Below, in pieces: positions 4,635 to 46,605 of a DNA stretch of 64,000 bases. This DNA comes from an uncultured Roseovarius sp. (GTDB taxonomy: Bacteria > Pseudomonadota > Alphaproteobacteria > Rhodobacterales > Rhodobacteraceae). Where the stretch lies: the NCBI GenBank assembly GCA_947497295.1, contig CANMFU010000005.1, forward strand, positions 1 through 64,000. Reading direction: 5' to 3'. The translations under genes and the position numbers were made by a program. Position 1 is the stretch's first letter, and each line of letters opens with the position of its first letter. The notes beneath the pieces were generated by a model. It was not told the DNA's origin and did not search any database. It saw nothing but the letters and a program-made list of their open reading frames with translations.

Positions 4635-4637
4635 GGG

Positions 4638-28978: not shown

Positions 28979-29007
28979 TATTGTTATCTCCCTTGTTGGT
29001 GGTCGCG

Positions 29008-31211: not shown

Positions 31212-32792
31212 ATGACATTGACTGATGCACAGACCCACGCCCTGAAAACCGTTGACGCGCGCATGCCGGAGCTGTCCGAATGGTGCGCGACGATTTTCGA
31301 CTTTGGCGAAACGGCGTGGCGCGAATACCGCTCGGCCGAATGGTACGTGGCGCGGCTGCGCGCCGAAGGCTTCACCGTCGAAGAAGGGTCCGGCGGGATG
31401 CCGACCGCCTTTTGCGCCGAGTGGTCGAATGGCGACGGGCCGATCATCGGGATGTATGGCGAATATGATGCCATTCCGGGCAATTGCCAGGCCGCAGTGA
31501 CGCATCGCGCCCCGCGCGATGGGCTGGGATACATGGCCGGCGGCCATACCGACCCGCATTCGGGGCTGGGCATCGGCGCGCTGGGCGGGCTCTTGGCGAC
31601 CAAGGCGGCGATGGAGGCGGGCGGCATCAAGGGCGGCCTGCGATTCACTGGCGAGCCTGCGGAAAAGGTGCGCGGTTCGAAACCCATTCACGCCGCCAAA
31701 GGGTATTATGACGGGCTGGCGGCGATGCTGTCGTTTCATCCGTTCTACATGCTGCCGATGTGCAACACGGTGCGCTGGGATACTCACTGTGGCGCCGCCT
31801 ATTCGATGATCTACCGGTTTATCTGCGACACGCCCGAGGCATGGGGCGCCGGCGATGGCGCGCCGATCCCGCAATCGCACTCCGCCATCCGCGCGCCAGG
31901 CGCGTCCGAGGCGCTGGTGCAGATGTATTCGCTGTCGAAATCCCTGCGCGAGTCGATGCTGCCGCATCAGGGCGGCTGGTCCATCTCCGAGGCGATCCTG
32001 ACAGCCGGTCAGGCCACCGCCGACAACCAGCCCGCCGGGCTGGCCGAATTGCAGTACATGATGCGCACCCCGACCGTGGAGATGGCCGAGCAGGTGACAG
32101 CGGCGCTGGACCGCAACGCCGCCGCCGTCGCCGCCATGACCGGCTGCCGGTGGGAGCGGCACTGGGTCTGCAAATCGCGCCCCGGATTGGCCAATCACGC
32201 GATGGCGAATGTCGTTTGGGACGCGTTGCAAGCCGCTGGTGCGCCCGAATGGGGCGCCGAGGCGGTCAGGGTCGCACAGGACATACAGGCCAATCTGGCG
32301 CAGGCGCCCATGGCCGAGCCGTTTATTGATGAGATGAGCCGTCTGATTTCCCCGCAGGATGCCGAGGCGATTTTGCGCCGCGATCTGCCACCTTCGCAGC
32401 TCAACAGCACATCGGACGATTACACCGACATGAGCTGGCACGCCCCGCTGGCGCGGTTCTACATCGCGCGCCCGGCGCTGAAGCCGAACGGCCCGCCCTA
32501 TCCCAACTGGGTGATGAACGCGCTGGGTGGAATCCCCGCCACGATTGACCCGATGGTGCGAACAGCGGCGCGGGTCTGCGCCCTGTCAGCACTGCGCCTC
32601 TTGGAGGACAAGGCGGCGCGCGATGCCGCTATGGACGAATTCAAGGACCGCACCGGCGGCGGTGTGGGCGGGGATAAATGGCTGGCCCCGCTATGCGATT
32701 ACGAGCCGCCCATTCATTTCCGCTGGCCTGAATATATCGACACCCCGCGCGGGCGCGACTGGTGGATACCCTCTGCCATGCCCGATGCCTGA
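31212..32792 (+). CDS. M20-family metallo-amidohydrolase (AbgB-like)
   Basis: The 526-residue enzyme shows M20 metal-site motifs: GMYGEYDAIPG, GYMAGGHTDPHSGLGIGALG (His/Asp ligands), and LRFTGEPAEKVRGSKP with the catalytic/ligand Glu. A dimerisation insert follows in the middle. The size and GEYDA motif are closest to the p-aminobenzoyl-glutamate hydrolase AbgB type. It should split an amide bond. The ATG at 31212 with AGGAGGA just upstream is preferred over earlier in-frame ATGs. It is followed 18 bases later by a dimethylarginine-hydrolase-like gene, suggesting successive steps on one N-substituted compound. Confidence 0.85.
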   Translation: MTLTDAQTHALKTVDARMPELSEWCATIFDFGETAWREYRSAEWYVARLRAEGFTVEEGSGGMPTAFCAEWSNGDGPIIGMYGEYDAIPGNCQAAVTHRAPRDGLGYMAGGHTDPHSGLGIGALGGLLATKAAMEAGGIKGGLRFTGEPAEKVRGSKPIHAAKGYYDGLAAMLSFHPFYMLPMCNTVRWDTHCGAAYSMIYRFICDTPEAWGAGDGAPIPQSHSAIRAPGASEALVQMYSLSKSLRESMLPHQGGWSISEAILTAGQATADNQPAGLAELQYMMRTPTVEMAEQVTAALDRNAAAVAAMTGCRWERHWVCKSRPGLANHAMANVVWDALQAAGAPEWGAEAVRVAQDIQANLAQAPMAEPFIDEMSRLISPQDAEAILRRDLPPSQLNSTSDDYTDMSWHAPLARFYIARPALKPNGPPYPNWVMNALGGIPATIDPMVRTAARVCALSALRLLEDKAARDAAMDEFKDRTGGGVGGDKWLAPLCDYEPPIHFRWPEYIDTPRGRDWWIPSAMPDA

Positions 32793-32810
32793 CCCAAAGG
32801 AGCCTTTCCC

Positions 32811-33728
32811 ATGCTAGATAAAACCCAAAGCGAATTTACCCTCCAGCGCCGCAAGCGCGGCGGCGGCACGCCGCGCATGAAAAACTGGCACCTGCCCAAT
32901 GAGACAGACGCGCTCAGCCATGTCCTGCTGGGATCGCCCGCGCATCTGAAACACCTATCAACCTCAAGCTTGTCATCGAAGCACCTGCGCGAAAACCCCT
33001 GCAACATTCAGGTCGCGCAATCCCAACATGCCGAAATGGTGGCCGCCTACGAGCATTTCGGCGTCAAGGTTAAGATGCACGCGGCCCAGCCCGAATTGCC
33101 CATGCAAGTCTATGCGCGCGATTCGTCGGTAATGACACCTTATGGCGCGATCATTACAGCGATGTCGCAATGGTGGCGCCGGGGCGAGAATTACGCCGCC
33201 ATCCGCACCTACGAAGAACTGGGCATTCCGATCTATGACATGGTCACCGCCGGCACGTTCGAGGGCGGCGATTTCAACGTGATCGAAGAGGGCGTCCTTC
33301 TGATCGGCTGCGGCGGCGCGCGCACGAACGAGGCCGGCGCGCGTCAGGTGGCCGGATGGTTCGAGGATGAGGGCTGGGAGGTCAAGCTGGCCTTTATCGA
33401 CGAATATTATGTGCATATCGACCTGATGGTCGTGCCGATTGCCGAGAAACTGACCGCCGTTTGCCTTGATTGCACTGATCCCTGGATCGTCGACTGGCTC
33501 AAGGGCAAGGGCCATGAGATCATCGACGTGCCGTTCCGCGACACGATGAATCTGGGGTGCAACGTGATGAGCCTTGGCAATGGCAAGATCATCGCGCCCA
33601 AAGCCTCGACCGTGCTGGTCGATGCGCTGCGCGCGCGCGGATTCGAGGTGGCGGCGATTGATACGGCCGAAATCTCGAAAACCGGCGGCGGCATTCACTG
33701 CATGGCGCAAGCGCTCAATCGCGGCTGA
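32811..33728 (+). CDS. Dimethylarginine dimethylaminohydrolase-like amidinohydrolase
   Basis: The 305-residue enzyme belongs to the guanidino-group-modifying family (DDAH, arginine deiminase, amidinotransferase). Catalytic landmarks are all present: YARDSSV (Arg-Asp 103-104), EGGDFNVI (151-154), HID (His202, Asp204) and a C-terminal GGGIHC with the nucleophile Cys297. Such enzymes hydrolyse or transfer amidino groups of arginine derivatives. The exact substrate is open, and methylated arginine is only one option. It is in an operon with the M20 amidohydrolase. A hairpin lies 23 bases after its stop. Confidence 0.85.
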   Translation: MLDKTQSEFTLQRRKRGGGTPRMKNWHLPNETDALSHVLLGSPAHLKHLSTSSLSSKHLRENPCNIQVAQSQHAEMVAAYEHFGVKVKMHAAQPELPMQVYARDSSVMTPYGAIITAMSQWWRRGENYAAIRTYEELGIPIYDMVTAGTFEGGDFNVIEEGVLLIGCGGARTNEAGARQVAGWFEDEGWEVKLAFIDEYYVHIDLMVVPIAEKLTAVCLDCTDPWIVDWLKGKGHEIIDVPFRDTMNLGCNVMSLGNGKIIAPKASTVLVDALRARGFEVAAIDTAEISKTGGGIHCMAQALNRG

Positions 33729-33800: not shown

Positions 33801-35123
33801 TCACGAAACCATTGTTCCAGCCGGCACCTCATCGCCCTTTTCGCGGCGTGCCAACGCGCCAAGGATCGCTGCAGCAGCGGCTTTGGTGCCGGGATTGCGT
33901 TGCATATCATCCGAGATTTCGGCCAGACGTCCGCGCATCGCCGTGTCGTTCAAAATGGCCATGATATCGGCGCGCAGCGATTCGATGGACCAATCGGCGC
34001 GGTTGATATGCCTGCCGACACCGACCGTCTGCGCGCGCTGGGCGTTGTCGTGCCCGTCCCAGCAATATGGCATGACCAGCGATGGCACCCCATGATACAG
34101 CGCCTCGCAAAAGCTGTTATTGCCGCCGTGATGAATGGCCAGCGCGGCCTTTTCCATGACCGAGGGTTGCGGAAACCAACTGCCCAGATGCACATTGTCG
34201 GGCACGCGGTCATAGGCTTCGATCTGGGCGCCGACATTGACCAGAAACCGCGCCGGAACGGTCTCAAAGACAGCAATCAACCGTTTGATCAGGTCCGTAT
34301 CCACCGCACCCAGCGAGCCGAAACTGACATAGACAAGCGGCCCTGCGCTTAGCGGAAAACGCGGCGGGTCAAACTGGTTTTCGCTGCGCACACAGCCTTC
34401 GAGAAAGACGAATTTATCTTCTGGTAACGGGTTCCGGCGACAGTAGCGTACAGCGGCAGGCGAAAGAATTAGGTTCAAGGTCGGGGAGGGCTCTAAAAAC
34501 TGCGCGCCGCGTAAATCGGCCAGCAGGTGCTTCTTGCGAAATCTGTTGTAGTGGCGATGCACCGCGTCTGTGGCGGCGCGATATGCGGTGTCGAAACTGG
34601 CAATCGCGCCGGTGTCTTCGGGTGTCAGGCCCGACAGATAGGGCGGGACAGCGGGATCGGGTATCTCGGTCTCGGCGCAGGACACGATGCGGATCCAGGG
34701 GCATCCGGCATTGGCGATGGCGGGAAACATGATGACGTTGTCCAGCACGATGGCGTCCGGTGCGATCTGTTGCAGCAGCCGGGCCAGATCATCTTCGGCC
34801 GCGATAACGGTGTCGACAATTGCCGCCCATGTGGGCCGGACATAGGTCTGAAGCTGCGCCAGCGGGTCCAGATTGAAATGGGGCACATGGGTGTTGGTGA
34901 ATTCCTGCCAGTAGTCGGCGATGGTTTCGGCATTGGTGGCCGGGTCTTCGGGCAGGTGGTATTCCTTGAAGCCGTAATCGGCGAACACACCGGTGAATCC
35001 CGGATGGCAGATGAACACCGGGATCGCGCCCTTTTTTTGCAGCTCCTGCGCGATGCCGACACAGTTCAGCGCGGCGCCAAAGCTGGCCTCGGGAAAAAAG
35101 GCGATCGTTTGGGGGCGGGTCAT
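33801..35123 (-). CDS. Family-1 glycosyltransferase (UGT/MGT type), paralogue A
   Basis: The 440-residue GT-B protein starts MTRPQTIAFFPEASFGAALN. The C-terminal nucleotide-sugar site carries YVSFGSLGA (about 265-273), GSWFPQPSV (314-322), HHGGNNSF (331-338) and MPYCWDGHDN (351-360). These correspond to the HGG and D-Q/D-N regions of UDP-glycosyltransferases, so it probably transfers a sugar to a small acceptor in the cytosol. The acceptor is unknown. Its ATG overlaps the stop of the GntR gene (ATGA), so regulator and enzyme share a transcript. It is co-linear with paralogue B at 40,145 across the whole length. Confidence 0.85.
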   Translation of the reverse strand: MTRPQTIAFFPEASFGAALNCVGIAQELQKKGAIPVFICHPGFTGVFADYGFKEYHLPEDPATNAETIADYWQEFTNTHVPHFNLDPLAQLQTYVRPTWAAIVDTVIAAEDDLARLLQQIAPDAIVLDNVIMFPAIANAGCPWIRIVSCAETEIPDPAVPPYLSGLTPEDTGAIASFDTAYRAATDAVHRHYNRFRKKHLLADLRGAQFLEPSPTLNLILSPAAVRYCRRNPLPEDKFVFLEGCVRSENQFDPPRFPLSAGPLVYVSFGSLGAVDTDLIKRLIAVFETVPARFLVNVGAQIEAYDRVPDNVHLGSWFPQPSVMEKAALAIHHGGNNSFCEALYHGVPSLVMPYCWDGHDNAQRAQTVGVGRHINRADWSIESLRADIMAILNDTAMRGRLAEISDDMQRNPGTKAAAAAILGALARREKGDEVPAGTMVS

Positions 35124-36052
35124 GTGCGGGGGCCTTTTGCCAGCGGGGGAATGCCGCGGTTTGCCGCCTGCGGTTTGCGAATACGTGAACGGCGCAGATG
35201 CACGACGATCTGGTCGGCGGCCAGCTGAAACTGACTGCGTTCGAGGCTATCAAGAATCTCCAGATGCTCCAACATGGCCTGCCTCAGGCGAAATTCGGGG
35301 CTGAGCGCGATCTTTTGCGAGGCTTTGCGCAGCCGGTGATGTGCCGTCAGCGTGCCGCGCAGAAAGCGGTTGCCGGAACATTCGGCGATCAATGTATGAA
35401 ACTCGACATCTATGCGCCGGAAGCCTGCCGGAGCAACGGCGCCCTCTGGTGCGTTCAGAAAACTGGTCATCCGCTCGCGCAGAAGCCCGGCGCGTTTGGT
35501 GTCCAGCGCGAAATCCGGCGCCAGGATTGCCTGCGGTTCCATGAGAATGCGAAAGTCAAAACTGTCCTCGATGGCGTTTGCGGAATCCACCATCGGCTGA
35601 AACGCCCATGCGCGACCTGGAAGTTGGCGCACAATGCCATCTTTCGTCAGTACTTTTAGCGCATTTAGTACAGAGGCGCGCGGCGCATTATACCGCCGTG
35701 CCAGTGCGCTGACGGACTGCACGGCGCCGATGCGCCGCTCTGCCCGGTCTGATAGGATCTGGTGGGCAACGGAATGTTCGCTCTCCTCAAGGGATCGGAT
35801 CGTGGCGCTGATGTCTTCGGGCGATGCGAGTGTCAGGAAGTATCCTTCCTCCGCGCGCCATTCCAGAGCATCCCTTTCTTCCAGGACCTTAAAAGCAGAC
35901 CTGATCGGCGTTCGCGAGACCCCACAAGCCTTGGAAAAGGTCTGCTCAGGCAGGTGGTCGCCAGCGGCCATGCCGGTTTCCAGCGCGACCCCGAGGATTT
36001 TCTGCGCCAGCTCCAGATGGTTTTGCCGGATGTGTCGGCGGGGTTCGGCCAC
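35120..36052 (-). CDS. GntR-family transcription regulator with two apparent winged helices
   Basis: From a GTG at 36052 with AGGAGA at good spacing the product has 310 residues. The first winged helix (about 13-73) has EQTFSKACGVSRTPIRSAFK. A second helix-turn-helix-like unit (about 97-153) has ALARRYNAPRASVLNALKVL and DGIVRQLPGRAWAF. The rest is an FCD-like all-helical ligand domain with DFRILMEPQAILAP and FHTLIAECSGNRFL. It probably senses the amine or its conjugate and controls the divergent importer operon. The frame stays open far upstream, antisense to the binding-protein gene, but that part is not GntR-like. Confidence 0.82.
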   Translation of the reverse strand: MAEPRRHIRQNHLELAQKILGVALETGMAAGDHLPEQTFSKACGVSRTPIRSAFKVLEERDALEWRAEEGYFLTLASPEDISATIRSLEESEHSVAHQILSDRAERRIGAVQSVSALARRYNAPRASVLNALKVLTKDGIVRQLPGRAWAFQPMVDSANAIEDSFDFRILMEPQAILAPDFALDTKRAGLLRERMTSFLNAPEGAVAPAGFRRIDVEFHTLIAECSGNRFLRGTLTAHHRLRKASQKIALSPEFRLRQAMLEHLEILDSLERSQFQLAADQIVVHLRRSRIRKPQAANRGIPPLAKGPRT

Positions 36053-36152
36053 TGGTCCATCTCCTGAGTAACGATTTGTCCTGCATGGATCAGGCCGGAC
36101 TGAAAAAGAACATCGAATACAGTTTGACGTATTTTTATGCATCTTAATACTG

Positions 36153-36171
36153 TGTCGGAAAGTGAACGACA
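36153..36171. promoter_or_regulatory. Possible operator in the GntR/importer divergent gap
   Basis: TGTCG, nine bases, then CGACA form an inverted repeat in the 189-base gap between the divergent GntR and binding-protein genes. Position and symmetry suit a dimeric regulator, but the match to known GntR operators is weak. Confidence 0.3.
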
Positions 36172-36241
36172 ACGTTTGCAAATAACAAAACGCACGCGCC
36201 GCCCGTTTTCGTGGGTGAGCCGTGATAACGGGAGGAACGAA

Positions 36242-37291
36242 ATGTCTGGGCAATTCAAGATATGCGGAGCGGCCATGGGCGCAGGTCTGGCAATCAGCGC
36301 AAGCATGGCGTCGGCCCAAGCGCTGGTGGTGTCCAACTGGGACGGTTACATGGCGCCCGACGCGATCACGGCGTTCAATGATGCCACCGGCAATCAGGCC
36401 GAACTGGTGCTGCACGGCACCAACGAGGAAATCATGGGCAAGCTGATCGCGTCCAAGGGCAAGGGATATGACGTTGTTTTCGTCTCCTCGCCCTTTGCCG
36501 AGGTGCTGCATAATCTGGGCCTTGCCGAAGATCTGGACCACGCCAAGATCCCCAACATCGCCAATCTTTACCCGCAGGCAACGCAGCTGAGCCATGATGA
36601 GGGCAACGCGTTTTCGCTGCCCTATGCATGGGGCACTACCGGGCTGTGCTATCGTTCGGATCTGGTGGCCGAAACGCCCGACAGCTGGATGGACCTGCTG
36701 GAGCCATCGGAGGATCTGCGCGGCAAGACCACTATGCTGGCCACCGACCGCTGGCTGCTGGGCGCGGCGATGCTGGCCAAGGGGTATTCGGTCAACACCG
36801 TGGATGAGGCCGAACTGGCCGAAGTGCGCGACCAGCTGATCCAGACCAAGGGCACGCTGCTGGCCTATGACGACACCACGTTCTACGCCAAGCTGGTGTC
36901 CGGCGAGGCCGAGCTGGTGCAGGCGTGGGATGGCTGGTGCAACTATGGCATCGCCGAAAATGCCGACATCAAATATGTCATCCCCGAGGAGGGATCGGAT
37001 CTGTGGGTGGACACGATGGTGATCCTCAAGAATTCCCAGAACAAAGATGCGGCCTATGATTTCGTCAACTTCGTACTGGAGCCGGCCAACCACGGCTGGG
37101 CCGCCGAGAATATCCTCTACAAGGTGCCAAACCAGCCCGCGATGGAAGCGCTGCCCGATGAATTCGTGACGCAATTCCCGAATATGGGCATCCAGCCGGA
37201 TCAGCTGATGGGGTATGAGCAGCTGCGCGATGTGGGGCAGGCGCAGCGCGCCTATTCGCGGATCGTGTCCGAGATCAAGGCGGCCAACTGA
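36242..37291 (+). CDS. Polyamine-type ABC transporter substrate-binding protein (PotD/PotF-like)
   Basis: The 349-residue protein has a signal peptide (MSGQFKICGAAMGAGLAISA to ASAQA). A PotD/PotF-like fold follows: LVVSNWDGYMAPDAITAFND, GYDVVFVSSPFAEVLHNLGL, LPYAWGTTGLCYRSDLV and VQAWDGWCNYGIAEN. The tryptophans and acidic residues resemble polyamine pockets. The ATG at 36242 is preceded by GGGAGGAACGAA. It opens the plus-strand operon that runs on to the cupin at 46,123. The ligand is probably a polyamine or related amine. Confidence 0.88.
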   Translation: MSGQFKICGAAMGAGLAISASMASAQALVVSNWDGYMAPDAITAFNDATGNQAELVLHGTNEEIMGKLIASKGKGYDVVFVSSPFAEVLHNLGLAEDLDHAKIPNIANLYPQATQLSHDEGNAFSLPYAWGTTGLCYRSDLVAETPDSWMDLLEPSEDLRGKTTMLATDRWLLGAAMLAKGYSVNTVDEAELAEVRDQLIQTKGTLLAYDDTTFYAKLVSGEAELVQAWDGWCNYGIAENADIKYVIPEEGSDLWVDTMVILKNSQNKDAAYDFVNFVLEPANHGWAAENILYKVPNQPAMEALPDEFVTQFPNMGIQPDQLMGYEQLRDVGQAQRAYSRIVSEIKAAN

Positions 37292-37384
37292 TCGCGGCAC
37301 GCGCTCTTTGATGCACTTAACACAATGGGGCGGCGCAGAAATGCCCGCCCTTCCTTCCCGGAATTTCCAGCACAGGCGGGTCCG

Positions 37385-38236
37385 ATGACCGACCGCAAAC
37401 CTCTGTATCTGATGACGCCCGCGCTGGCCTGGCTGACGGCCTTCATGGTGGTGCCGTGCCTGTTGATCCTTGCGCTGGGGTTTTTCCGGCGAGGGATTTA
37501 CGGTGGCATCGAATACACCTTTACTCTGGAGAATATCGCGCTGGTGTTCGATCCGCTTTATGCGGGAATTTTCCTGAAATCCGCGATGATTGCCGGACTG
37601 TCGGCGCTGATCGCGGTCGTCATCGGCTATGCCGCCGCCTATGCCATCGCAGCCGCGCCGCAGCGCAGGCAGGCGACGCTGCTGTTTTTCGCGGTGCTGC
37701 CGTTCTGGTCAAACTATCTGGTGCGCACCTATGCGTGGATCGTGATGCTGAATCGCGAGGGGCTGATTGCGGGCATCGCGCATGGGCTGGGCTGGGGCGG
37801 CGAATTGCCCAAGATGCTCTATACCGAAAGCGCGGTGGTTATCGGGCTGGTCTATAACTACCTTCCGTTCGTCATTCTGGCCTGTTATGCGCCTCTGTCG
37901 CGCCTCAATCCCGAAATTGCCGAGGCATCGCGCGATCTGGGGGCCAGCGGCTGGACCACGTTCCGCCGGGTGATCCTGCCTGCGACCGTGCCGGGGATTG
38001 CGACCGGGTTTGTCTTTGTCTTCGTGCTGTCGATCGGCAATTTCGTGACGCCCGCGCTGCTGGGGGGCGGTCAGTTCCAGATGATCGGCAACCTGATCTA
38101 TGCGCAGTTCCTGACGGCGAATGACTGGCCCTTTGGCGCCGCGCTTTCGATATTCCTGATCGCCATCATGATGGGTCTGCTTACCCTTCAGACCTTCGCG
38201 ACCGAGCGTGCCTCTGGCGCGCGGCGGGAGGAATAG
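37385..38236 (+). CDS. potB: Polyamine-type ABC transporter permease (PotB-like)
   Basis: The 283-residue, six-helix permease reads LPFWSNYLVRTYAWIVMLNR and YLPFVILACYAPLSRLNPEI. The EAA loop is AEASRDLGASGWTTFRRVIL, and IGNFVTPALLGGGQFQMIGN is the PotB hallmark. The start at 37385 is preferred to an open upstream extension that lacks helices. It forms the channel with the PotC-like product encoded three bases downstream. Confidence 0.88.
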   Translation: MTDRKPLYLMTPALAWLTAFMVVPCLLILALGFFRRGIYGGIEYTFTLENIALVFDPLYAGIFLKSAMIAGLSALIAVVIGYAAAYAIAAAPQRRQATLLFFAVLPFWSNYLVRTYAWIVMLNREGLIAGIAHGLGWGGELPKMLYTESAVVIGLVYNYLPFVILACYAPLSRLNPEIAEASRDLGASGWTTFRRVILPATVPGIATGFVFVFVLSIGNFVTPALLGGGQFQMIGNLIYAQFLTANDWPFGAALSIFLIAIMMGLLTLQTFATERASGARREE

Positions 38237-38239
38237 GAT

Positions 38240-39031
38240 ATGCGCGGCACCGCCAATCCCCGCCTGATGCTGATGATCCTGTCGGCGGTCTTTGCGTTCC
38301 TCTACATCCCGATTTCGGTGCTGTTCGCGTTGTCCTTTAACGAGGGCGGGTTGCCAACGGCATGGACCGGATTTTCGGTGAAATGGTATGGCGCGCTGTT
38401 TCGCAATGGCGACATCATGGGCGCCGCGCTGAACACGCTGATCGTGGCGGTGGTTTCGACGATCATGGCCACCATCCTCGGGACGCTCTTGGCCGTCGGG
38501 GTGGAAATCAGGCGCCGCAAGGGCCGTTTCCTTGAGACGATCATCTTTGCCCCGATGATCATTCCCGACATCGTGCTGGCCATCGCGCTGCTCAGCTTTT
38601 TCTCGCTGCTGAATGTCACGATGGGGTTGCATACGGTGATCGTCAGTCATGTGGTGTTCAATCTTGCCTTTGTCTGCTCGGTCGTGCGGGCGCGGTTGAA
38701 GACCTTTGACTGGTCCATTGTCGAGGCATCCACAGATCTGGGCGCGCCGATGCCAGTGACCCTGTGGCGCGTTGTCCTGCCGGTGATGATGCCGGCGGTG
38801 ATCGCGGGGGCATTGCTGGCGTTTACCCTGTCGCTGGACGAATTCATCATCGCGTTCTTCACCGCCGGTGCCGGGCGCGATTCCATCACCTTGCCCATGC
38901 AGATTTTTGCGATGATCCGCTTTGGCGTGACCCCTGAAATCAACGCGCTGGCCGCCATCGTGATGACCGTATCGGTCGTCATTCTGGCGATATCGCAGCG
39001 CCTGAACCGTGGAGGGCTTCCGGGACAATGA
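38240..39031 (+). CDS. potC: Polyamine-type ABC transporter permease (PotC-like)
   Basis: The 263-residue permease has six helices. It shows YIPISVLFALSFNEGGLPTA near the N-terminus, the EAA loop IVEASTDLGAPMPVTLWRVV, and FTLSLDEFIIAFFTAGAG, all PotC features. It starts four bases after the PotB-like stop, and its own stop overlaps the ATPase ATG (ATGA), so the importer genes are tightly coupled. Confidence 0.88.
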   Translation: MRGTANPRLMLMILSAVFAFLYIPISVLFALSFNEGGLPTAWTGFSVKWYGALFRNGDIMGAALNTLIVAVVSTIMATILGTLLAVGVEIRRRKGRFLETIIFAPMIIPDIVLAIALLSFFSLLNVTMGLHTVIVSHVVFNLAFVCSVVRARLKTFDWSIVEASTDLGAPMPVTLWRVVLPVMMPAVIAGALLAFTLSLDEFIIAFFTAGAGRDSITLPMQIFAMIRFGVTPEINALAAIVMTVSVVILAISQRLNRGGLPGQ

Positions 39032-40086
39032 CCCAGCCTTTGCTGACCATCCGGGGGGTCGAAAAGCGCTTCGGCGCCGTCCAGGCCATTGACGGGATCG
39101 ACCTCGACATTCAGGAGAACGAGTTTTTCGCGCTTCTGGGCGCATCGGGCAGTGGCAAGACCACGCTTTTGCGCATGTTGGCAGGGTTTGAATTGCCCGA
39201 TGGCGGCCAGATCATCCTTGACGGCAAGGATGTCAGTCGCGTGCCGCCAAACCACCGGCCGGTGAACCTGATGTTTCAATCCTACGCCCTGTTTCCGCAT
39301 ATGAGCGTGGCGCAGAACATCGCCTACGGGCTGGAGATGGAGAAGCTGCCCAAGGCGCAGATCAAAAGCCGCGTCGATGAAATCCTCGAGGTGATCCAGC
39401 TGGCGCATCTGGCGGCGCGCAAGCCCGATCAGCTGTCCGGCGGTCAAAGGCAGCGGGTTGCGCTGGCGCGCGCCTTGGTCAAACGCCCGCGTCTGCTCCT
39501 GCTGGACGAGCCGCTGGGTGCGCTGGACAAGAAACTGCGCGGCGAAATGCAGCTGGAGCTGAAACGCATCCAGCACGAATTTGGCATCACCTTCATCATC
39601 GTCACCCACGATCAGGAAGAGGCGCTGGTGATGGCCGACCGGGTGGCGATCTTGCAGGATGGCAAGCTGCTGCAATGCGGCACCCCGCACGAGATTTACG
39701 AACAGCCGCAAAGCCGCTTTGCCGCCGATTTCATCGGCGTGATGAATTTCATCCCGGTGCGCGAGGAGGGCGGTAAATTGCGGGCCGCTGACGGCAGCAT
39801 CATCGCAGCGGCTGCATCGCTTGAGCCCGGACAGGCTGGCGTTGCCGCCGTGCGGCCCGAACGGCTGCGCATCGGTGGCGCAGCGGGCGAGAACAGTCTC
39901 ATCGGCACGGTCACCGCGACCGCCTATCACGGGCTGGATCTGCAGGTGCATCTGAAAAGCCCCGCATCGCCCGATCCGGTGCTGATGCGCCTGACCGCCG
40001 ATGCCGCCGAGGCGCGCCCGCTGAAGGCGGGCGACAGCGTCACCATTCACTGGACGGCCCGCGATACGCGCGCCTTCCCGGTGTGA
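39028..40086 (+). CDS. potA: Polyamine-type ABC transporter ATP-binding protein (PotA-like)
   Basis: The 352-residue ATPase has Walker A LLGASGSGKTT, Q-loop LMFQSYALFPHM, signature LSGGQRQRVALARA, Walker B LLLDEPLGALDK and H-loop IVTHDQEEA. A C-terminal TOBE-like domain carries AAVRPERLRIGG. It powers the importer encoded at 36,242-39,031. A glycosyltransferase gene follows after 58 bases, with GGAGATG before its ATG, so it is probably co-transcribed. Confidence 0.9.
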   Translation: MTQPLLTIRGVEKRFGAVQAIDGIDLDIQENEFFALLGASGSGKTTLLRMLAGFELPDGGQIILDGKDVSRVPPNHRPVNLMFQSYALFPHMSVAQNIAYGLEMEKLPKAQIKSRVDEILEVIQLAHLAARKPDQLSGGQRQRVALARALVKRPRLLLLDEPLGALDKKLRGEMQLELKRIQHEFGITFIIVTHDQEEALVMADRVAILQDGKLLQCGTPHEIYEQPQSRFAADFIGVMNFIPVREEGGKLRAADGSIIAAAASLEPGQAGVAAVRPERLRIGGAAGENSLIGTVTATAYHGLDLQVHLKSPASPDPVLMRLTADAAEARPLKAGDSVTIHWTARDTRAFPV

Positions 40087-40144
40087 AACCCACACAAAAA
40101 GACCGCGCTCAAGCGGCAGCAGTCACTTACAAGGAGATGATCTT

Positions 40145-41431
40145 ATGACCCAGAAAACCTTCGCCTTTTTCCCCGAAGCGGCCTTTGGTCCCGCGTTGAA
40201 CTCTGTCGGTATCGCGCAGGCGGTCGAGCGTAAGGGCCACAAGGTGGTGTTCCTGTCCGACCCCGGATTTGTCGATGTTTACAAGGGCTATGGGTTTGAG
40301 GCCCATCCCGTGAACCTGTCCGAACCGATGCCGCCTGAACAGATGGCGAAATTCTGGGAGGATTTCATCAACGGTCACATCCCGAACTTTCGCAAGGCGC
40401 CGATCGACCAGATCGACAACTACGTCAAGGAATGCTGGGAGGCGATCGTGGACAGTGCTAAATGGGCGCAAAAGGATCTGCCCGCCATTCTGGACAAGAT
40501 AAAGCCGGACGTGATCGCCACCGACAACGTGATCCTGTTCCCGGCCATCAAGCAATACGGCGTGCCATGGGTGCGCGTGATTTCCTGTTCCGAAAATGAG
40601 ATCGAGGATGACGCGATCCCGCCGCATCTGTCCGGCATGTCGGTCAATGACAGCGAAGGTCACGCTGCGTTTCGCCAGAAATTCAACGAGATGATCAAAC
40701 CGATTCACGATGATTTCAATGCGTTCCTGAAAACCACTGGCGAAGATCCTTACCCGTTGGGCGAATTTTTCGAGCGCTCCCCATGGCTGAACCTGTTGCT
40801 GTATCCTGAGCAAATGAAATACAAGCGCGCCGTCCCGCTGGACCCGGAGCGGTTTCAGTATCTGGAGGGCTGCGTGCGGCAGGACAAACCCTACGATTTG
40901 CCGACATTCAAGAAGAACAACGACGGCCCGCTGCTTTATGTCTCGTTCGGCTCGCTGGGGGCCGGCGATACCGACCTGCTGAAACGCATCATTCAGATGA
41001 TCGGGCGCAGCCGCTATCGTGCGCTGGTCAATGTCGGCGATTACGAGGCCGAATACAGCGACATCCCGGACAATGTCATCATCGGCAGCTGGTTTCCGCA
41101 GCCTTCGGTCATCCCGCAGGTCGATGCGGTGATCCATCACGGCGGCAATAATTCATTCACCGAATGTCTCTACTTCGGCAAGCCGGCGATCATCATGCCC
41201 TATGTCTGGGATGGCCACGACAACGCGATGCGCGTGCAGGAAACCGGCCACGGCTTCCGCTCGGACCGCTATGATTGGACCGATGAGGAGTTGACGGCCA
41301 AGATCGAGGCGTGTCTGACAGATGCCGACATGGCCGCCCGGCTGAAGAAGACGTCCGCTCATATGCAATCTCAAAACGGTCAGGAAAAGGCAGCGACGCT
41401 GCTGGCCAAACTGGCGGAGAAACAGAAATGA
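40145..41431 (+). CDS. Family-1 glycosyltransferase (UGT/MGT type), paralogue B
   Basis: The 428-residue GT-B protein starts MTQKTFAFFPEAAFGPALNS. Its motifs fall at exactly the same positions as in paralogue A: YVSFGSLGA (265-273), GSWFPQPSV (314-322), HHGGNNSF (331-338) and WDGHDN (355-360). The N-terminal acceptor half is more diverged than the C-terminal donor half, which suggests the same sugar donor with different acceptors. It lies between the importer genes and a cupin whose ATG overlaps its stop. A role in modifying the imported compound is inferred from that context only. Confidence 0.85.
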   Translation: MTQKTFAFFPEAAFGPALNSVGIAQAVERKGHKVVFLSDPGFVDVYKGYGFEAHPVNLSEPMPPEQMAKFWEDFINGHIPNFRKAPIDQIDNYVKECWEAIVDSAKWAQKDLPAILDKIKPDVIATDNVILFPAIKQYGVPWVRVISCSENEIEDDAIPPHLSGMSVNDSEGHAAFRQKFNEMIKPIHDDFNAFLKTTGEDPYPLGEFFERSPWLNLLLYPEQMKYKRAVPLDPERFQYLEGCVRQDKPYDLPTFKKNNDGPLLYVSFGSLGAGDTDLLKRIIQMIGRSRYRALVNVGDYEAEYSDIPDNVIIGSWFPQPSVIPQVDAVIHHGGNNSFTECLYFGKPAIIMPYVWDGHDNAMRVQETGHGFRSDRYDWTDEELTAKIEACLTDADMAARLKKTSAHMQSQNGQEKAATLLAKLAEKQK

Positions 41432-41790
41432 CCAACCTCACTTGCTCGGCGCCGCATATCCATGGGGCCACCACTTATGACGATCTGCTCGACTGGGGGC
41501 CGCAGCCCGACATGATCGAAGGGCAGTCGCATTCGACAGGCCGGTTGCTACACAAGGGGCCGGGCAATTCGCCCGAAACCGGTGTATGGGTCTGCACGCC
41601 GGGCACCCGGAAAATCTCGGTGCCGCGCAACGAATTTTGTCATTTCGTCGCAGGCCGCGTCACCTATCGCCGTGGCGGCGGCGATGAGGTAATCGAGGCC
41701 GGACCGGGCACTTGCGTCATGTTTCCGGCAGGCTGGGAAGGCACCGCCGAGATCACCGAAACCCTGCGCAACATTTACATGCTGGTTTGA
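41428..41790 (+). CDS. Small cupin protein (DUF861-like), 1 of 3
   Basis: The 120-residue single-domain cupin reads ETGVWVCTPGTRKISVPRNE, then FCHFVAGRVTYRRGGGDEVI and a final TLRNIYMLV. This is the cupin_3/DUF861 pattern, with few metal-binding histidines. Its ATG overlaps the stop of glycosyltransferase B. Such small cupins often accompany amine oxidase and aldehyde dehydrogenase genes, but their catalytic role is not clear. It could be a sugar-binding or isomerase-like partner. Confidence 0.8.
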   Translation: MTNLTCSAPHIHGATTYDDLLDWGPQPDMIEGQSHSTGRLLHKGPGNSPETGVWVCTPGTRKISVPRNEFCHFVAGRVTYRRGGGDEVIEAGPGTCVMFPAGWEGTAEITETLRNIYMLV

Positions 41791-41794
41791 AAGG

Positions 41795-42148
41795 ATGAAA
41801 ACCATGAAAGCACCCGTGATGAACAACCCGCTTCAGGTCACCGATCTGGCTGACTGGGGCATCATCCCGACGATGATCGAGGGCGAAAGCCACGTTTCCG
41901 GCAAGGTCCTGCACAAGGGCCCGGATGGTCAGAGCGAATGTGGCCTCTGGGTCTGCACCCCCGGCAAATGGGATTGCCATGTCACCAGCGACGAATTCTG
42001 CCACTTCCTTGAGGGGCGCTGCACATATGTGCACGAATCCGGTGATGTAATCGAAGTCACGCCCGATACCGCAGCGTTTTTCCCCAAGGACTGGAAGGGC
42101 GTCTGCACCGTCCATGAAACCATCAAGAAGGTTTACATGATCCGATGA
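41795..42148 (+). CDS. Small cupin protein (DUF861-like), 2 of 3
   Basis: The 117-residue cupin is a paralogue of the preceding one (SECGLWVCTPGKWDCHVTSD, EFCHFLEGRCTYVHESGDVI, ending KKVYMIR). The shared SGxVLHKGP and LWVCTPGK segments show a local duplication. An ATG is also possible three codons into the protein. Its stop overlaps the ATG of the kinase gene (ATGA). The function is unknown beyond the cupin fold. Confidence 0.8.
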   Translation: MKTMKAPVMNNPLQVTDLADWGIIPTMIEGESHVSGKVLHKGPDGQSECGLWVCTPGKWDCHVTSDEFCHFLEGRCTYVHESGDVIEVTPDTAAFFPKDWKGVCTVHETIKKVYMIR

Positions 42149-43167
42149 CCGGACCTGCTCAGATCCTGCCTGCCTCTGCCGACCTTCTGGCGCAGCAGGG
42201 GCAGGACGCCGCCCGGCTGACGGCCTTTAAATCCGACGCCTCGCCGCGCCGGTACTACCGGCTGGAGGGGCAGGGGATGGTGCTGATGGAGGACCCGACC
42301 GATCCGGTGGGGTTCGACGCGTTCCTGCGTCTTTCGGCGCATCTCAATGATCTGGGCCTGTCGGCGCCACGCATTCTGGCGGCCAATGAGGCGGCGGGGG
42401 TGGCGCTGATCGAGGATTTCGGCGACACCACCTATACCAACTGCCTGTCTGCCGGGCAGGATGAGGGCGCGCTGTATCGCCTCGCCGTGGATGCCCTGCT
42501 GCATCTGCACCACGACCCGCGCGGGGTAGAGGCGGCGCAGCCGCGCTATGACGTGGCACGGATGTTGGACGAGCTGGCGGTGTTTGCCGAATGGTTCGTG
42601 CCCGCCGTCGCCCCCGATGTGGACGTGGCCAGTTTCGGGCGCGACTGGCGCGCCCGTTGGCAGGACGCGCTGGCGCCGGTGGACGCGCGGTTTGATACGC
42701 TGGTGATGCGGGATTTTCACGTCGATAACCTGATGTTACTGGAGGATCGCGAGGGCGTCCGGCGCTGCGGTCTGCTGGACTTTCAGGACTGCGTGCTGGG
42801 ACCTTGCGAATATGATCTGATGTCGCTTTTGCAGGACGCGCGCCGCGATCTTTCGCCGGGGCTGGAGGAGGCGCTGCTGACGCGCTATCTGGTCGGCGCC
42901 CCCGCTCATCTGGGCCGCCCCAAGGAGATCCGCCGCCGCTATCACCTGCTGGCCGCCCAGCGCCACGCGCGCATCCTCGGCGTTTTTGTCCGGCTGTGCC
43001 AGCGCGATGGCAAGCCGCGCTATCTGGAATGGATGCCGCGTGTGCTGCGCCAGTTCCAGACCGCGCTGACGGATGCAAACCTCACCGATATTTCCGCGCT
43101 GCTTGATGCGCGCCTGCCAAACTGGCGGGAAAAGGCCGCAACGCTCGAAACCCGTTTCAAACCCTGA
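42145..43167 (+). CDS. AmgK-like sugar kinase / aminoglycoside-phosphotransferase-fold protein
   Basis: The 340-residue protein of the COG3178/APH fold has the catalytic loop MRDFHVDNLMLL (Asp190, Asn195) and the metal-binding LLDFQDCVLGPCEYDLMSLL (Asp212). LDFQD followed by GP-x-x-YDL-x-S-L is close to AmgK, the anomeric kinase for N-acetylmuramate and N-acetylglucosamine. Ordinary AmgK sits beside murU, but here the neighbours are cupins, a glycosyltransferase and an aldehyde dehydrogenase. It may phosphorylate a sugar freed from a conjugate. Other small-molecule kinase roles remain open. Confidence 0.78.
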   Translation: MTGPAQILPASADLLAQQGQDAARLTAFKSDASPRRYYRLEGQGMVLMEDPTDPVGFDAFLRLSAHLNDLGLSAPRILAANEAAGVALIEDFGDTTYTNCLSAGQDEGALYRLAVDALLHLHHDPRGVEAAQPRYDVARMLDELAVFAEWFVPAVAPDVDVASFGRDWRARWQDALAPVDARFDTLVMRDFHVDNLMLLEDREGVRRCGLLDFQDCVLGPCEYDLMSLLQDARRDLSPGLEEALLTRYLVGAPAHLGRPKEIRRRYHLLAAQRHARILGVFVRLCQRDGKPRYLEWMPRVLRQFQTALTDANLTDISALLDARLPNWREKAATLETRFKP

Positions 43168-43181
43168 AAAGGAGTGTCCGC

Positions 43182-44687
43182 ATGTCCGACATTCACGCGC
43201 CCTGCTATTATCTGGCCCCCGATTTCCATCCTTCCGAGGGTGCCGGCCAGCCCGTCATCGACCCCGCCACGCTAGAGCAGGTCGGGCAGCGCGCCATTGT
43301 GACAGGGGCCGAATTGGAGAGCGTCCTGACCCGCGTGAATGCCGCGCAGCGCAAATGGGCGAAAATCGACGCGAAAACGCGCGCCGCGATGCTGCACCAG
43401 CTGGCCAACCGGATCGAGGCGCATGACATGACCGATTGCGCCATCCTGATGAGCCGCGAGATGGGCAAACCCTATCCCGAAGCCATCGGCGAGGTTGCCA
43501 ATTGCGCGCCGATCTTTCGCTATTATGCCGAAATGGCCCGCGATGAGGCGGGCAAGGTGGCGGGGACCACGCAAGTAGGCTCTCTGCAATTTGCGCGCTA
43601 CGAGGCGCTGGGCGTGTCGGCGCATATCATGCCGTTCAATTTTCCGATCCTTTTGATGTGCTGGACCGTCGCCGCATCGCTGGCCGCGGGCAATGGCGCG
43701 GTGATCAAACCCGCAGAGGCGACGACGCTGTCGACGCTGGAATTCATGAAGGTATTTTCGGATATGCCCGAAGGCTTGATTGCCTGCGTTCCGGGCGATG
43801 CTGATGTGGGGCGCGCCTTGGTGGACAGCCCCAAATCCCACGCAGTCGCCTTTACCGGGTCGGTCAAGGCCGGGCAGGCGGTGGCCGAGGCCGCTGCGCG
43901 CCGCCTGAAACCGGCAGTAATCGAGGCGGGCGGATCGGATCCGATGATCATCACGGCGCATGCCCCCATCTCGGTGGCCGCGGCCGGCGCGGTGACGGGC
44001 GCGTTTCACATGTCGGGGCAGGTCTGCACCTCGACCGAGCGGATGTATGTTGTCGACGCGGTGCATGACGAATTCGTGCCCGCCTTTGTCTCCGAGACGA
44101 AACGCCTGCGCATCGGTAACGGGCTGAAGAAATCCGAAATCGGTCCCTTGGTCAGCGAGGCTGCGCGCGACCGGGTGGTGAAACTGGTCGCGGATGCCGT
44201 GGCCAATGGCGCCACGGTCGAATGTGGCGGGCGCATCCCCGAGGGGATGGACACCGGCTGGTTCTACGAGCCGACGATCCTGACGAACTGCACGCCCGAT
44301 ATGGCAATCCAGCGGCAGGAGGTGTTCGGCCCGGTGGTCAGCATCGTGCGCGTGCCGGATTTCGACACCGCCATCGCCATGGCGAACGACAGTGAATTCG
44401 GCCTTGGCGCGTCGGTCTTTACCACCGATCTGGCCGAGGCGCATGAGGCTTGCGAGCGGCTGGAGTCCGGGATGGTCTGGATCAACAACCCGATGATCGA
44501 CAATGACGCGCTGCCCTTTGGCGGATGGAAGAATTCCGGCATCGGGCGCGAATTGGGGCGGATGGGGCTGGACACGTTCCGCCGCACCAAGATGGTGATC
44601 ATGGACCACAATCCGGTGCACCATGACTGGTGGTATCCCTATGACGACGATTGGTTTCTGGACGAGGGCGGGCGCAAACACGTCTGA
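43182..44687 (+). CDS. NAD(P)-dependent aldehyde dehydrogenase
   Basis: The 501-residue enzyme has the aldehyde dehydrogenase catalytic set: Asn153 in PFNFP, Glu248 in VIEAGGSDP, and the nucleophile Cys282 in GQVCTSTERM. EVFGPVVSIVRV and PFGGWKNSGIGRELGRMGL mark the C-terminal part. It is related to succinate-semialdehyde and aminoaldehyde dehydrogenases. It should oxidise the aldehyde made by the FAD oxidase encoded next. GGAG precedes the ATG. The last 25 residues are rich in aromatic and acidic residues (HHDWWYPYDDDWF), an unusual tail. Confidence 0.88.
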   Translation: MSDIHAPCYYLAPDFHPSEGAGQPVIDPATLEQVGQRAIVTGAELESVLTRVNAAQRKWAKIDAKTRAAMLHQLANRIEAHDMTDCAILMSREMGKPYPEAIGEVANCAPIFRYYAEMARDEAGKVAGTTQVGSLQFARYEALGVSAHIMPFNFPILLMCWTVAASLAAGNGAVIKPAEATTLSTLEFMKVFSDMPEGLIACVPGDADVGRALVDSPKSHAVAFTGSVKAGQAVAEAAARRLKPAVIEAGGSDPMIITAHAPISVAAAGAVTGAFHMSGQVCTSTERMYVVDAVHDEFVPAFVSETKRLRIGNGLKKSEIGPLVSEAARDRVVKLVADAVANGATVECGGRIPEGMDTGWFYEPTILTNCTPDMAIQRQEVFGPVVSIVRVPDFDTAIAMANDSEFGLGASVFTTDLAEAHEACERLESGMVWINNPMIDNDALPFGGWKNSGIGRELGRMGLDTFRRTKMVIMDHNPVHHDWWYPYDDDWFLDEGGRKHV

Positions 44688-44714
44688 AACCGGTTTTTAT
44701 ATCGAGGAGCGCAC

Positions 44715-46103
44715 ATGACCCAGCAGAGTAAATTCGCAGACGCAAAACTTGCGCCCTATTGGCGCGAGACAGTGGAAAAGCCGGTGCGCGGCGCAACGCT
44801 GGCCGGGGATATCACCTGCGATTTGGCTATCATAGGTGGTGGGTTTGCGGGACTGTGGTCTGCACTGAAGGCGACCGAGCGTTTTCCCGATGCCCGGATC
44901 GTTGTTCTGGAGGGCGACACTCTGGGCAATGCCGCCAGCGGGCGCAATGGCGGGTTTTGCGCGCCCAGCATCTCGCATGGCGTATCGAACGCGGTGGAGC
45001 GCTGGCCCGATGAGGCCGAAACGCTGGTCCGGCTGGGGCGCGAAAATCTGGATGCGTTCGAACAGGATCTGGAAAGCTACGGCATTGATGGCGGGTTCGA
45101 GCGCAGCGGCAAGCTGAACGTCGCCGCAACGCCTTGGCAGGTGCAGGGGCTGCGTGCGATGCAGGCCAATTATGCTCGGTTCGGGATTGAAACCGAATAT
45201 CTGGAGGGCGCCGCGCTGGACGAACGGTTCAAGACGCCGCGATATTGCGCCGGCTTGTTCGAGCCGAATTATGCGCTGGTCAATCCCGGCCGGCTGGTCG
45301 ATGGGCTGGCACGCGCGGCAATGGCGCGCGGTGTTAAGGTTTATGAGCATTGTCTGGTCACAGGGCTCAAGAATGAAGCCGGCGGCGTGCGCCTGACGGC
45401 GCAGGGCGGCACTGTCCATGCAAAGCAGGTTATTCTCGCCACCAACGCCGCGGTCCCGTTGCTCAAACGGCTGCGCGGCGCGGTTATTCCGGTCTGGGAT
45501 TACACATTGCTGAGCGCGCCGCTGAGCGATGATCAATTGGCGGCTATCGGCTGGCAAGGGCGGTACGGCGTTGCCGATAGTGGCAATCAGTTTCACTATT
45601 TTCGCAAGACCGAGGATAACCGCATTCTCTGGGGCGGCTATGACGCCATTTATCATTATGGCAACGGCCGCGATCCGCAGTTGAGCGACAGAACTGAAAC
45701 CTATGCGAAGATCGAGCAGAACTTCTTTGATGCGTTTCCGGCGCTGGCCGGTATCGGATTCACCCATCGCTGGGGCGGGATCATTGACACTTCGGCGCGC
45801 CTGACCACCTTTGTCGGCGCGGCGATGCAGGGCCGTGTCGTCTATGCGATGGGGTTTTCGGGGCAGGGCGTGTCGGCGACGCGGTTTGCCGCGCTGACCA
45901 TGCTGGACCTTCTGGAGGGCAAGACGACAGAGCGCACGCAGCTGAAGCTGCTGAGCAGTTATGCGGTTCCGTTCCCGCCCGAACCCCTGCGCAGCATGGC
46001 GGTGAAATGGGCGCAGGCCGATCTGGCGCGCGAGGACATCACCGGCAAGCGGTCGATGCTGCTACGGACGCTGGACCGGTTCAGGATCGGTTTCGGCTCA
46101 TAG
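44715..46103 (+). CDS. FAD-dependent amine oxidase (PuuB/DadA-like)
   Basis: The 462-residue flavoenzyme has the dinucleotide fold AIIGGGFAGLWSA (GGGFAG at 41-46). GNAASGRNGGFCAP follows (the SGRNGG flavin region of the PuuB family), then VILATNAAVPLLKRLRGAVI and the C-terminal YAMGFSGQGVSATRFAALTM. It should oxidise a primary or secondary amine to an aldehyde with release of ammonia and peroxide. It lies 28 bases after the aldehyde dehydrogenase, so the pair forms a PuuB-PuuC-like step. A gamma-glutamyl donor ligase (PuuA) is not present nearby. Confidence 0.86.
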   Translation: MTQQSKFADAKLAPYWRETVEKPVRGATLAGDITCDLAIIGGGFAGLWSALKATERFPDARIVVLEGDTLGNAASGRNGGFCAPSISHGVSNAVERWPDEAETLVRLGRENLDAFEQDLESYGIDGGFERSGKLNVAATPWQVQGLRAMQANYARFGIETEYLEGAALDERFKTPRYCAGLFEPNYALVNPGRLVDGLARAAMARGVKVYEHCLVTGLKNEAGGVRLTAQGGTVHAKQVILATNAAVPLLKRLRGAVIPVWDYTLLSAPLSDDQLAAIGWQGRYGVADSGNQFHYFRKTEDNRILWGGYDAIYHYGNGRDPQLSDRTETYAKIEQNFFDAFPALAGIGFTHRWGGIIDTSARLTTFVGAAMQGRVVYAMGFSGQGVSATRFAALTMLDLLEGKTTERTQLKLLSSYAVPFPPEPLRSMAVKWAQADLAREDITGKRSMLLRTLDRFRIGFGS

Positions 46104-46122
46104 GTTCAATGGAGAAAATTAC

Positions 46123-46605
46123 ATGAAAAACCCCGAACATGTGATCGGGTTCGACACCGCAGGCATAGCGCCGTGCGAGACGGTTGTGGATGATCCCGCT
46201 GCCGTCGACACGCCCTATACCAGCCGCAGCTGGCGCCAGTTCGAGAACAGCGAAAAGGGCGCCAGCGCCGGTATCTGGGAGGCCGGGCCGCACAAGGAAC
46301 GCTGCAAATGCGACTATGACGAGCTGTGTCATATCCTTGAGGGCGACGTGCGCCTGACAGATGCCGCAGGCACATCCCGCACGTTTGGTGCGGGTGACAG
46401 TTTTGTCGTCGCGGCAGGTTTTGATGGCATTTGGGAGAACCTGACAGACGTGCGAAAGGTGTTCTTCATCCTGTCCTCAGGGCGCGCGCTCAGCGGCTGC
46501 GGGTCAGTTCCAGAAACACATCCTGAAGATCGGCCTGTTCGGTACGCACATCGCGGATGCGGATTCCCGCATCGCGCACGGCCGCCAGAACTGCCTCGGC
46601 GCTGA
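46123..46605 (+). CDS. Small cupin protein, 3 of 3, with run-on C-terminus
   Basis: The first about 120 residues are a cupin ([40 protein letters not shown], then VRKVFFIL). Cupins of this type normally end within a few residues of the KVFFIL strand. Here the frame runs on for about 43 residues ([20 protein letters not shown] to ELPRR), which are antisense to the 3' end of the ABC ATPase gene. The extension looks like accidental coding produced by loss of the native stop at a junction. The cupin core itself may still fold. Confidence 0.75.

Follow-up and report, generated by a model that had tools for sequence, protein, structure and literature searches.

What does an operon that appears built to import and oxidise an amine do with two glycosyltransferases and a sugar kinase? 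The question is raised by a gene cluster at positions 33801-46605 of the window, a 64,000-nucleotide stretch of contig CANMFU010000005.1 from an uncultured Roseovarius sp., in which a polyamine-type ATP-binding cassette (ABC) importer is followed by a glycosyltransferase (GT1), cupins, a kinase resembling AmgK, an aldehyde dehydrogenase (ALDH) and a PuuB-like amine oxidoreductase (DAO), with a second glycosyltransferase (GT2) and a GntR regulator transcribed divergently. Conjugation to glutamate is the textbook means of taming amines and aminoaldehydes during their breakdown. The original prediction, made from the DNA letters, was that here the amine may instead be masked by a sugar and oxidised as the conjugate, and the freed sugar rephosphorylated; gene calls together with Pfam and NCBIfam scans confirmed every gene that it named, with its direction. 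We find that the cluster is a real, conserved catabolic system, undescribed as far as the searched literature goes, and our tentative reading, to which we give somewhat less than an even chance, is that N-acetylglucosamine (GlcNAc), or a close hexosamine, may serve in it as a reusable tag for the imported amine.

GT1 has 371 relatives in a species-genome collection, and matches to it occur in 21 of 146 relatives and, in a set of 398 genomes sampled across the phylum, in 8, a count that includes the window genome. Locus content was compared in the best 80 of the 371 matching stretches, which are the nearest loci and so biased to similar ones. GT1, the second cupin (cupin 2) and ALDH are present in all 55 of these loci that span at least 21 kb, and in 54 they are accompanied by GT2, GntR, the solute-binding protein (SBP), both permeases and the ATPase, the exception being L049. 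Of the co-occurrence that the original prediction had proposed as a check, the part that joins the two transferases to a cupin and the dehydrogenase is borne out. Less regular among the 55 are cupin 1 (48), the kinase (22), DAO (21) and cupin 3 (12). Of twelve further stretches, mostly more distant, ten hold the core, although L134 and L138 among them showed no GT2 or GntR; the other two stretches, L135 and L136, show little besides GT1 and a cupin. The plasmid collection holds a GT1 homologue in 15 records, and the 11 with a cupin 2 of at least 55% identity are the same 11 whose GT1 reaches at least 57%. The haloarchaea Natrialba magadii and Natronorubrum aibiense carry GT1, cupin and ALDH, with a ROK kinase and a phosphoglucomutase adjoining. 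The cluster is a conserved unit, far beyond chance.

No paper describing the cluster or sugar-tagged amine breakdown was found in the literature searched, a body from which subscription papers and preprints are mostly absent, and the accessible part of a haloarchaeal paper (PMC3102087) does not mention the cluster. The known roseobacter spermidine importer SPOA0381-0384, so described in the accessible parts of PMC9870897 and PMC9038784, was considered as the same cluster and rejected, since the Ruegeria pomeroyi megaplasmid is not among the 15 GT1-matching plasmid records.

Release and reuse of the sugar are indicated best by the finding that different enzymes for the same task adjoin the same transferase. 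Eleven loci (L034, L035, L043, L046, L051, L055-L058, L060 and L063) contain an extra gene of about 240 residues for a GlmU-type uridylyltransferase. The L058 protein matches the GlmU model (E = 1.4e-81) over model positions 5-242 of 453, its uridylyltransferase half, and all 17 positions that we take to form this active site in E. coli GlmU are unchanged in each of the 11 proteins, so that the UDP-GlcNAc pyrophosphorylase site is present. Each of the four searched genomes with the extra gene encodes a further GlmU-like protein in an open frame of 460-465 residues, so the operon gene is a dedicated copy. Among the 60 loci of at least 18 kb it is found only alongside the kinase, in 11 of 26 loci with a kinase versus none of 34 without. 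In both haloarchaeal records the ROK kinase and an archaeal GlmM-like mutase stand beside the transferase, cupin and ALDH, offering a different way to the sugar 1-phosphate; in N. magadii the best model for the kinase is glucokinase and the mutase reaches 288 bits, both below cut-off. These salvage genes (AmgK-type kinase, GlmU-type uridylyltransferase, GlmM-like mutase) point to GlcNAc as probably the sugar. The choline/CDP-choline route, in which LicA and LicC are the kinase and the nucleotidyltransferase, was considered and rejected, because the best curated models for the kinase are those of AmgK and the uridylyltransferase is GlmU-like.

Further evidence comes from the fate of the housekeeping kinase. 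No AmgK-type kinase other than that of the cluster is encoded in the window genome. Kinase matches occur in 128 of the 146 relatives, 7 of which hold the cluster type (at least 66% identity) and 125 the housekeeping type (30-47%), and housekeeping amgK lies between tsaE and murU in each of the four genomes of the genus that possess it and were examined. The cluster type is found in 7 of the 84 genomes of the genus (G000, G042, G051, G059, G066, G076 and G079). Four of the seven keep amgK in its place, with 883-955 bp between tsaE and murU. In the other three, the window's own genome and two relatives, amgK is gone and murU kept, the gap being 414 bp in G000, 206 bp in G079 and 11 bp in G076 (loci L158 4721-6312, from the window genome, L153 7679-10682, L159 and L160). 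Among the remaining 77 genomes of the genus only two, 65% and 73% complete, are without a kinase match (Fisher p = 0.003, kinship ignored).

In G079 the flanks of the window cluster are kept (DNA identity 91% for the DDAH gene and 89% for the ABC gene); the kinase is the one cluster gene that lies between them, and GT1 has no match anywhere in the genome. Its kinase is sister to that of the window (98/87) in a tree of 45 kinases, and at this syntenic site the simplest reading is that G079 lost the rest of the cluster. A 23-residue match in G079 to the end of cupin 3 was considered as a remnant and set aside as no proof, since it falls on the overlap of cupin 3 with the ABC gene. The four housekeeping AmgKs in the tree form one clade (100/100), with all cluster kinases but that of L049 outside it; L039 and L051 also sit on long branches. 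G076 branches farther from the window and G079 than does G059, which keeps amgK; if the kinase tree follows the species, two separate losses of amgK are therefore probable. The loss of amgK where the cluster kinase is present is evidently a natural gene replacement and, because amgK is missing in three genomes that hold it, the cluster kinase most likely carries out AmgK's reaction. With this replacement, and with the GlmU-type or ROK and mutase partners in relatives, rephosphorylation of the sugar is the claim of the original prediction that gains strong support. The likeness to AmgK-MurU recycling of cell-wall sugars ends with the kinase family and the replacement: the cluster kinase stands in an amine operon and outside the housekeeping clade, and the operon's uridylyltransferase, where present, is of GlmU type.

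Both transferases belong to the GT1/UGT superfamily, which also holds the macrolide enzymes MGT and OleD. The AlphaFold2 model of GT1 (predicted local distance difference test, pLDDT, 92.6) has a GT-B fold, whose nearest solved neighbours are the spider-mite UDP-glycosyltransferases UGT203A2 (7mco, template-modelling score 0.90) and UGT202A2; the best curated family for the transferases is that of macrolide glycosyltransferases, below cut-off. That the nearest solved relatives are mite enzymes fits the idea that the mite UGT genes came from bacteria. To compare active sites we used an alignment of 99 GT1 and 80 GT2 rows, 179 in all (after omission of a short row from each set; L139 and L140 have genes in the GT2 position that by score count as GT1), with mite UGT203A2 as its sole reference. 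None of the 179 rows (99 GT1, 80 GT2) has the catalytic His of the mite enzyme; Pro, Ala or Ser stands in its place. Its partner Asp127 and the donor residues H332, N335, N336, E340, D356, D359 and N360 are kept in all 179 and H331 in 178; the donor motif HHGGNN...E...D..DN, and with it the nucleotide-sugar site supposed by the original prediction, is intact at sequence level in both GT1 and GT2. E11 is invariant throughout. A loop that carries P, N and G in the mite enzyme is acidic here, with E150, E152 and D155 kept in 178, 179 and 176 of 179, and is assigned to the acceptor half from the alignment rather than from coordinates. The mite sugar-pocket residues F-G-D-Q correspond to (V/C)-W-D-G, with Q changed to G in 178 of 179.

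The lost pocket Gln may leave space for a 2-acetamido group and, taken with the salvage genes, this remodelling indirectly suggests UDP-GlcNAc as the donor of GT1 and GT2, a sugar nucleotide used by at least one UGT, UGT3A1, as the available part of PMC9688768 describes. In plant UGTs a His/Asp pair deprotonates the acceptor (PMC3828253, accessible part). With the base needed for hydroxyl acceptors absent, transfer would most likely be to nitrogen. The cluster transferases thus keep the fold and donor motif of their superfamily and differ from it in the catalytic His, the pocket, the acidic loop and their place in a catabolic operon.

The nature of the amine was approached through the SBP. All four subunits of the importer are homologous to those of PotABCD, and 87 cluster SBPs were aligned to E. 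coli PotD, whose acidic ligand contacts we take to be E36, D168, E171 and D257. PotD residues D257, W229 and Y293 are kept in all 87 and W255, W34 and Y37 in 86, whereas E36 gives way to G in 86, and D168 and E171 to T and W in all 87; fifteen other SBPs in the same loci show a different residue pattern. One of the four acidic contacts is kept, D257, and acidic residues for both polyamine ends are not retained. Because three of four are lost, a one-headed amine fits better than putrescine or spermidine, and the ligand is probably a compound with a single recognised ammonium, although an Asp at position 35 in 85 of 87 might add a second contact. The solved relatives of the SBP are polyamine-binding proteins, and the importer is annotated merely as spermidine/putrescine transport.

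Regulation seems to be conserved too, since the GntR and SBP genes share an element between them, kinship being one reason for this. TTGACGTA is found in 66 of 74 GntR-SBP intergenic regions, with 66 matches in 19.4 kb versus 34 further ones in 1.67 Mb of the same loci, and the ATAC-N8-GTAT element that contains it is a probable GntR operator and/or -35 box. By eye, the GntR/FCD regulator has a second winged-helix-like stretch between its N-terminal helix-turn-helix (HTH) and the FCD domain; Pfam shows one HTH.

Concerning the oxidative steps, E. coli Puu proteins were used as tblastn probes (E<=1e-5). PuuB matches the window DAO with 31% identity and PuuC the window ALDH with 32.5%, both at superfamily level, and models of betaine-/aminobutyraldehyde dehydrogenases outscore the PuuC model for the ALDH. 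The statement of the original prediction that no PuuA or PuuD homologue is present is true for the window, where PuuA, PuuD, PuuR, PuuE and PuuP gave no match; as seven glutamine-synthetase-fold genes lie elsewhere in the genome, the absence of PuuA holds for the window only. PuuD matched in none of 87 loci; near the N. magadii cluster a gene is annotated as type 1 glutamine amidotransferase. Compared with E. coli Puu, the window shares the oxidase and dehydrogenase types and, if our proposal holds, the logic of conjugation, oxidation and release, and it differs in having the ABC importer, the transferases, the cupins and the sugar kinase.

On this basis a pathway can be proposed. A compound with one recognised ammonium, as the pocket residues suggest, would enter through the PotABCD-type importer, and GT1 and GT2 would move the sugar from UDP-GlcNAc onto it, most likely at nitrogen. 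The amine end would then be oxidised, by DAO in window-type clusters and by PuuA plus PuuB in Mesorhizobium, and the resulting aldehyde by the core ALDH. What the sequences show is the family of each protein, their co-conservation, the kinase replacement and the active-site identities; donor, acceptor, order of steps and mode of release are inferred. The tag might be released by spontaneous hydrolysis of the glycosylamine or, speculatively, with the help of the cupins; no glycosidase is among the annotated cluster genes, a statement about annotation, as no systematic glycosidase search was made. All three cupins carry a Cupin_3 domain, and the fold model of cupin 2 (pLDDT 95.6) has 3bcw, a DUF861 protein, as its nearest fold, with uncharacterised DUF861 proteins and EutQ on top in Foldseek. 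Free GlcNAc would be phosphorylated at C1 by the AmgK-like kinase, a role well supported by the gene replacement, and GlcNAc 1-phosphate converted to UDP-GlcNAc by GlmU or, in 11 relatives, by the operon's own uridylyltransferase, as its active-site identity suggests. Spelled out fully, with GlcNAc as a recyclable protecting group that a histidine-less GT-B pair places on the amine nitrogen, the conjugate oxidised to an acid and the sugar shed and turned back into UDP-GlcNAc by the 1-kinase and GlmU-type uridylyltransferase of the operon, the route is possible but doubtful. If true, it would be a sugar counterpart of gamma-glutamylation common to Proteobacteria and haloarchaea, and a new principle in nitrogen metabolism, a sugar with its own recycling loop standing in place of glutamate conjugation. 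The cluster, with an importer labelled only for spermidine/putrescine transport and a GT1 that has so many relatives, would thereby gain a function, and this would be the first catabolic role for histidine-less UGT-like enzymes, for which we know of no earlier one.

Several observations weigh against this route. With PuuA of E. coli as the probe, 27 of the 87 loci give a match: 25 from Mesorhizobium and kin, one from Defluviimonas and one from a haloarchaeon. In 23 of the 25 rows of Mesorhizobium and kin a close PuuA-like ligase (glutamine-synthetase type, GS) lies directly 3' of GT2 on the same strand, at 14-92 bp in 15 rows (in the other 8 the measure is spoiled by upstream read-through of the probe), and is followed by a PuuB homologue (41% identity to E. 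coli PuuB in L091); in two metagenome-assembled genomes (MAGs), L083 and L088, GS sits downstream of ALDH instead. Since PuuA-like ligases adjoin the transferases there, glycosylation and glutamylation are not alternatives in the Mesorhizobium clade, and since the pair occurs with or without PuuA, the transferases are not simply its substitute. Their standing in PuuA's place, as originally proposed, is thus consistent with the PuuA-less window and fails in Mesorhizobium; ligases beside the set in relatives, which the original prediction had named as evidence against itself, are found in that clade and not generally. No other result speaks as strongly against the original prediction. The kinase, DAO and the uridylyltransferase are each missing from more than half of the 60 loci (present in 26, 25 and 11, kinase and DAO together in 23). 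The PuuB-like oxidase named by the original prediction is therefore present in the window and accessory in the family, which places oxidation by it outside the core. The window cluster itself is without a uridylyltransferase gene, so the genome's own GlmU would have to serve. The kinase scores 224 bits against the AmgK model NF045698 (cut-off 500) and is hence AmgK-like, not AmgK proper, even though AmgK models are its best curated matches, and the L049 kinase joins the base of the housekeeping clade, on a long branch and with weak support (91/61). The missing His may also mean another acceptor with another base, E11 being invariant, or lost activity. Aliphatic glycosylamines are labile and can form without an enzyme, so a dedicated transferase needs a reason. 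Finally, the co-occurrence tests ignore kinship.

Some of these observations suit other explanations better. The target of the transferases could be a different group or an intermediate further along (a hydroxyl, a carboxylate or an aldehyde adduct), an O- or ester-glycoside step rather than amine masking, with the amine oxidised independently. The same pair stands alongside PuuA and PuuB right behind GT2 in those 23 rows; GS, present in 20 of the 60 loci, never shares a locus with DAO or the kinase, and 0 of the 27 PuuA-matching loci have a kinase or DAO, as if there were two ways for one step and the transferases did another (Fisher values reach 3e-11 but serve as description only, since they take no account of kinship and most GS loci come from one genus). 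The SBP pocket adds that substrates other than di- and polyamines are conceivable. We nevertheless consider this explanation rather unlikely, as the loss of His in 179 of 179 transferases and the acidic loop suit a cationic nitrogen acceptor better. A simple Puu variant, with PuuA encoded elsewhere, may also apply: the seven glutamine-synthetase-fold genes would allow it, and the lack of kinase and DAO from every PuuA-matching locus argues against it.

Detoxification or biosynthesis, in which the transferases turn the imported amine into a glycosylated end product as their macrolide-inactivating relatives do, would agree with the best curated family and with the nearest solved relatives, spider-mite UGTs being detoxification enzymes. 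We give it little credence, since importer, core ALDH, accessory amine oxidase and FCD-type regulator suit catabolism, and sugar-salvage genes are needed only where the sugar is freed again. It is more improbable still that the kinase is a cell-wall recycling amgK moved into an unrelated amine operon, the rest being Puu-like with transferases of unknown use. It is indeed the only such kinase of the window genome and stands alone without the cluster in G079, but 26 of the 60 loci contain it, housekeeping and cluster types occur together in four genus members, the four housekeeping AmgKs form a separate clade and 11 loci add a GlmU-type partner. Least probable, in our view, is that the transferases run in reverse, the imported compound being already a GlcNAc conjugate that is released as UDP-GlcNAc: transferases of this GT-B superfamily can be reversible and no glycosidase is annotated, but kinase and uridylyltransferase would then be needless, and the solved relatives of the SBP bind polyamines, not sugars. 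Hence the reusable GlcNAc tag remains the reading that we prefer, at the tentative level given above.

The layout of the window cluster is given in the table; its plus-strand neighbours are spaced by -4 to 58 bp.

Table. Features of the gene cluster in the window.
Feature	Position	Strand	Basis and remarks
GT2, GT-B glycosyltransferase (EryCIII-like_C/UDPGT), GT1 paralogue	33801..35123	-	domain scans; 46% identity to GT1
GntR/FCD regulator, divergent from importer	35120..about 36052	-	GTG start inferred
Conserved intergenic element ATAC-N8-GTAT with TTGACGTA inside	36117..36132	none	intergenic motif counts
PotD-type solute-binding protein (SBP)	36242..37291	+	alignment to PotD; pocket probably for one-headed amine
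ABC permease, PotB type	37325..38236	+	domain scans
ABC permease, PotC type	38240..39031	+	domain scans
ABC ATPase, PotA type	39028..40086	+	score above TIGR01187 cut-off
GT1, core GT-B glycosyltransferase	40145..41431	+	domains; AlphaFold2 model
Cupin 1 (Cupin_3, EutQ-like)	41428..41790	+	Cupin_3 domain; in 48/55 loci
Cupin 2 (Cupin_3), core	41795..42148	+	Cupin_3 domain; in 55/55 loci
APH/AmgK-like N-acetylhexosamine 1-kinase, accessory	42145..43167	+	family models; tree
Aldehyde dehydrogenase (ALDH), core	43182..44687	+	domain scans; in 55/55 loci
PuuB-like FAD amine oxidoreductase (DAO), accessory	44715..46103	+	domain scans; PuuB match
Cupin 3 (Cupin_3), accessory	46123..46605	+	Cupin_3 domain; end overlaps opposite-strand ABC gene

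Some related loci depart from this layout. L049 (a Halieaceae MAG, 3166-18623) lacks the ABC importer but keeps GT1, DAO, cupins, kinase and ALDH, and it also encodes a TonB receptor, a flavin amine oxidase, a sulfotransferase and an MFS_2 sugar-transporter-like gene. In G016 (L140 2179-4602) the GT2 homologue adjoins the gene of an 808-residue cytochrome P450 whose C-terminal part is 2Fe-2S/DmmA-like and which may offer another oxidative route for the amine step; L139 (G045) has an open reading frame of similar size. A saccharopine-dehydrogenase-like gene lies directly 3' of the core ALDH in L114 (13650-14837) and likewise in L066, L067, L069, L105 and L137; this neighbour occurs in some Rhizobiaceae, Ancylobacter lacus and a Rubellimicrobium MAG. 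On a Pseudomonas plasmid (L116, about 9001-9965) the GT1 homologue is in pieces; a DAO match (50% identity) and a type VI secretion gene lie nearby.

Upstream of the cluster, window positions 22627-33728 hold an OpuAC-type (glycine-betaine family) importer, a second Pot-like importer, a LysR gene and a dimethylarginine-hydrolase-like gene. A conserved 581-residue open reading frame, also upstream, has no Pfam match and looks M20-hydrolase-like by eye; compared with G079, 115 of its 168 differences fall on third codon positions.

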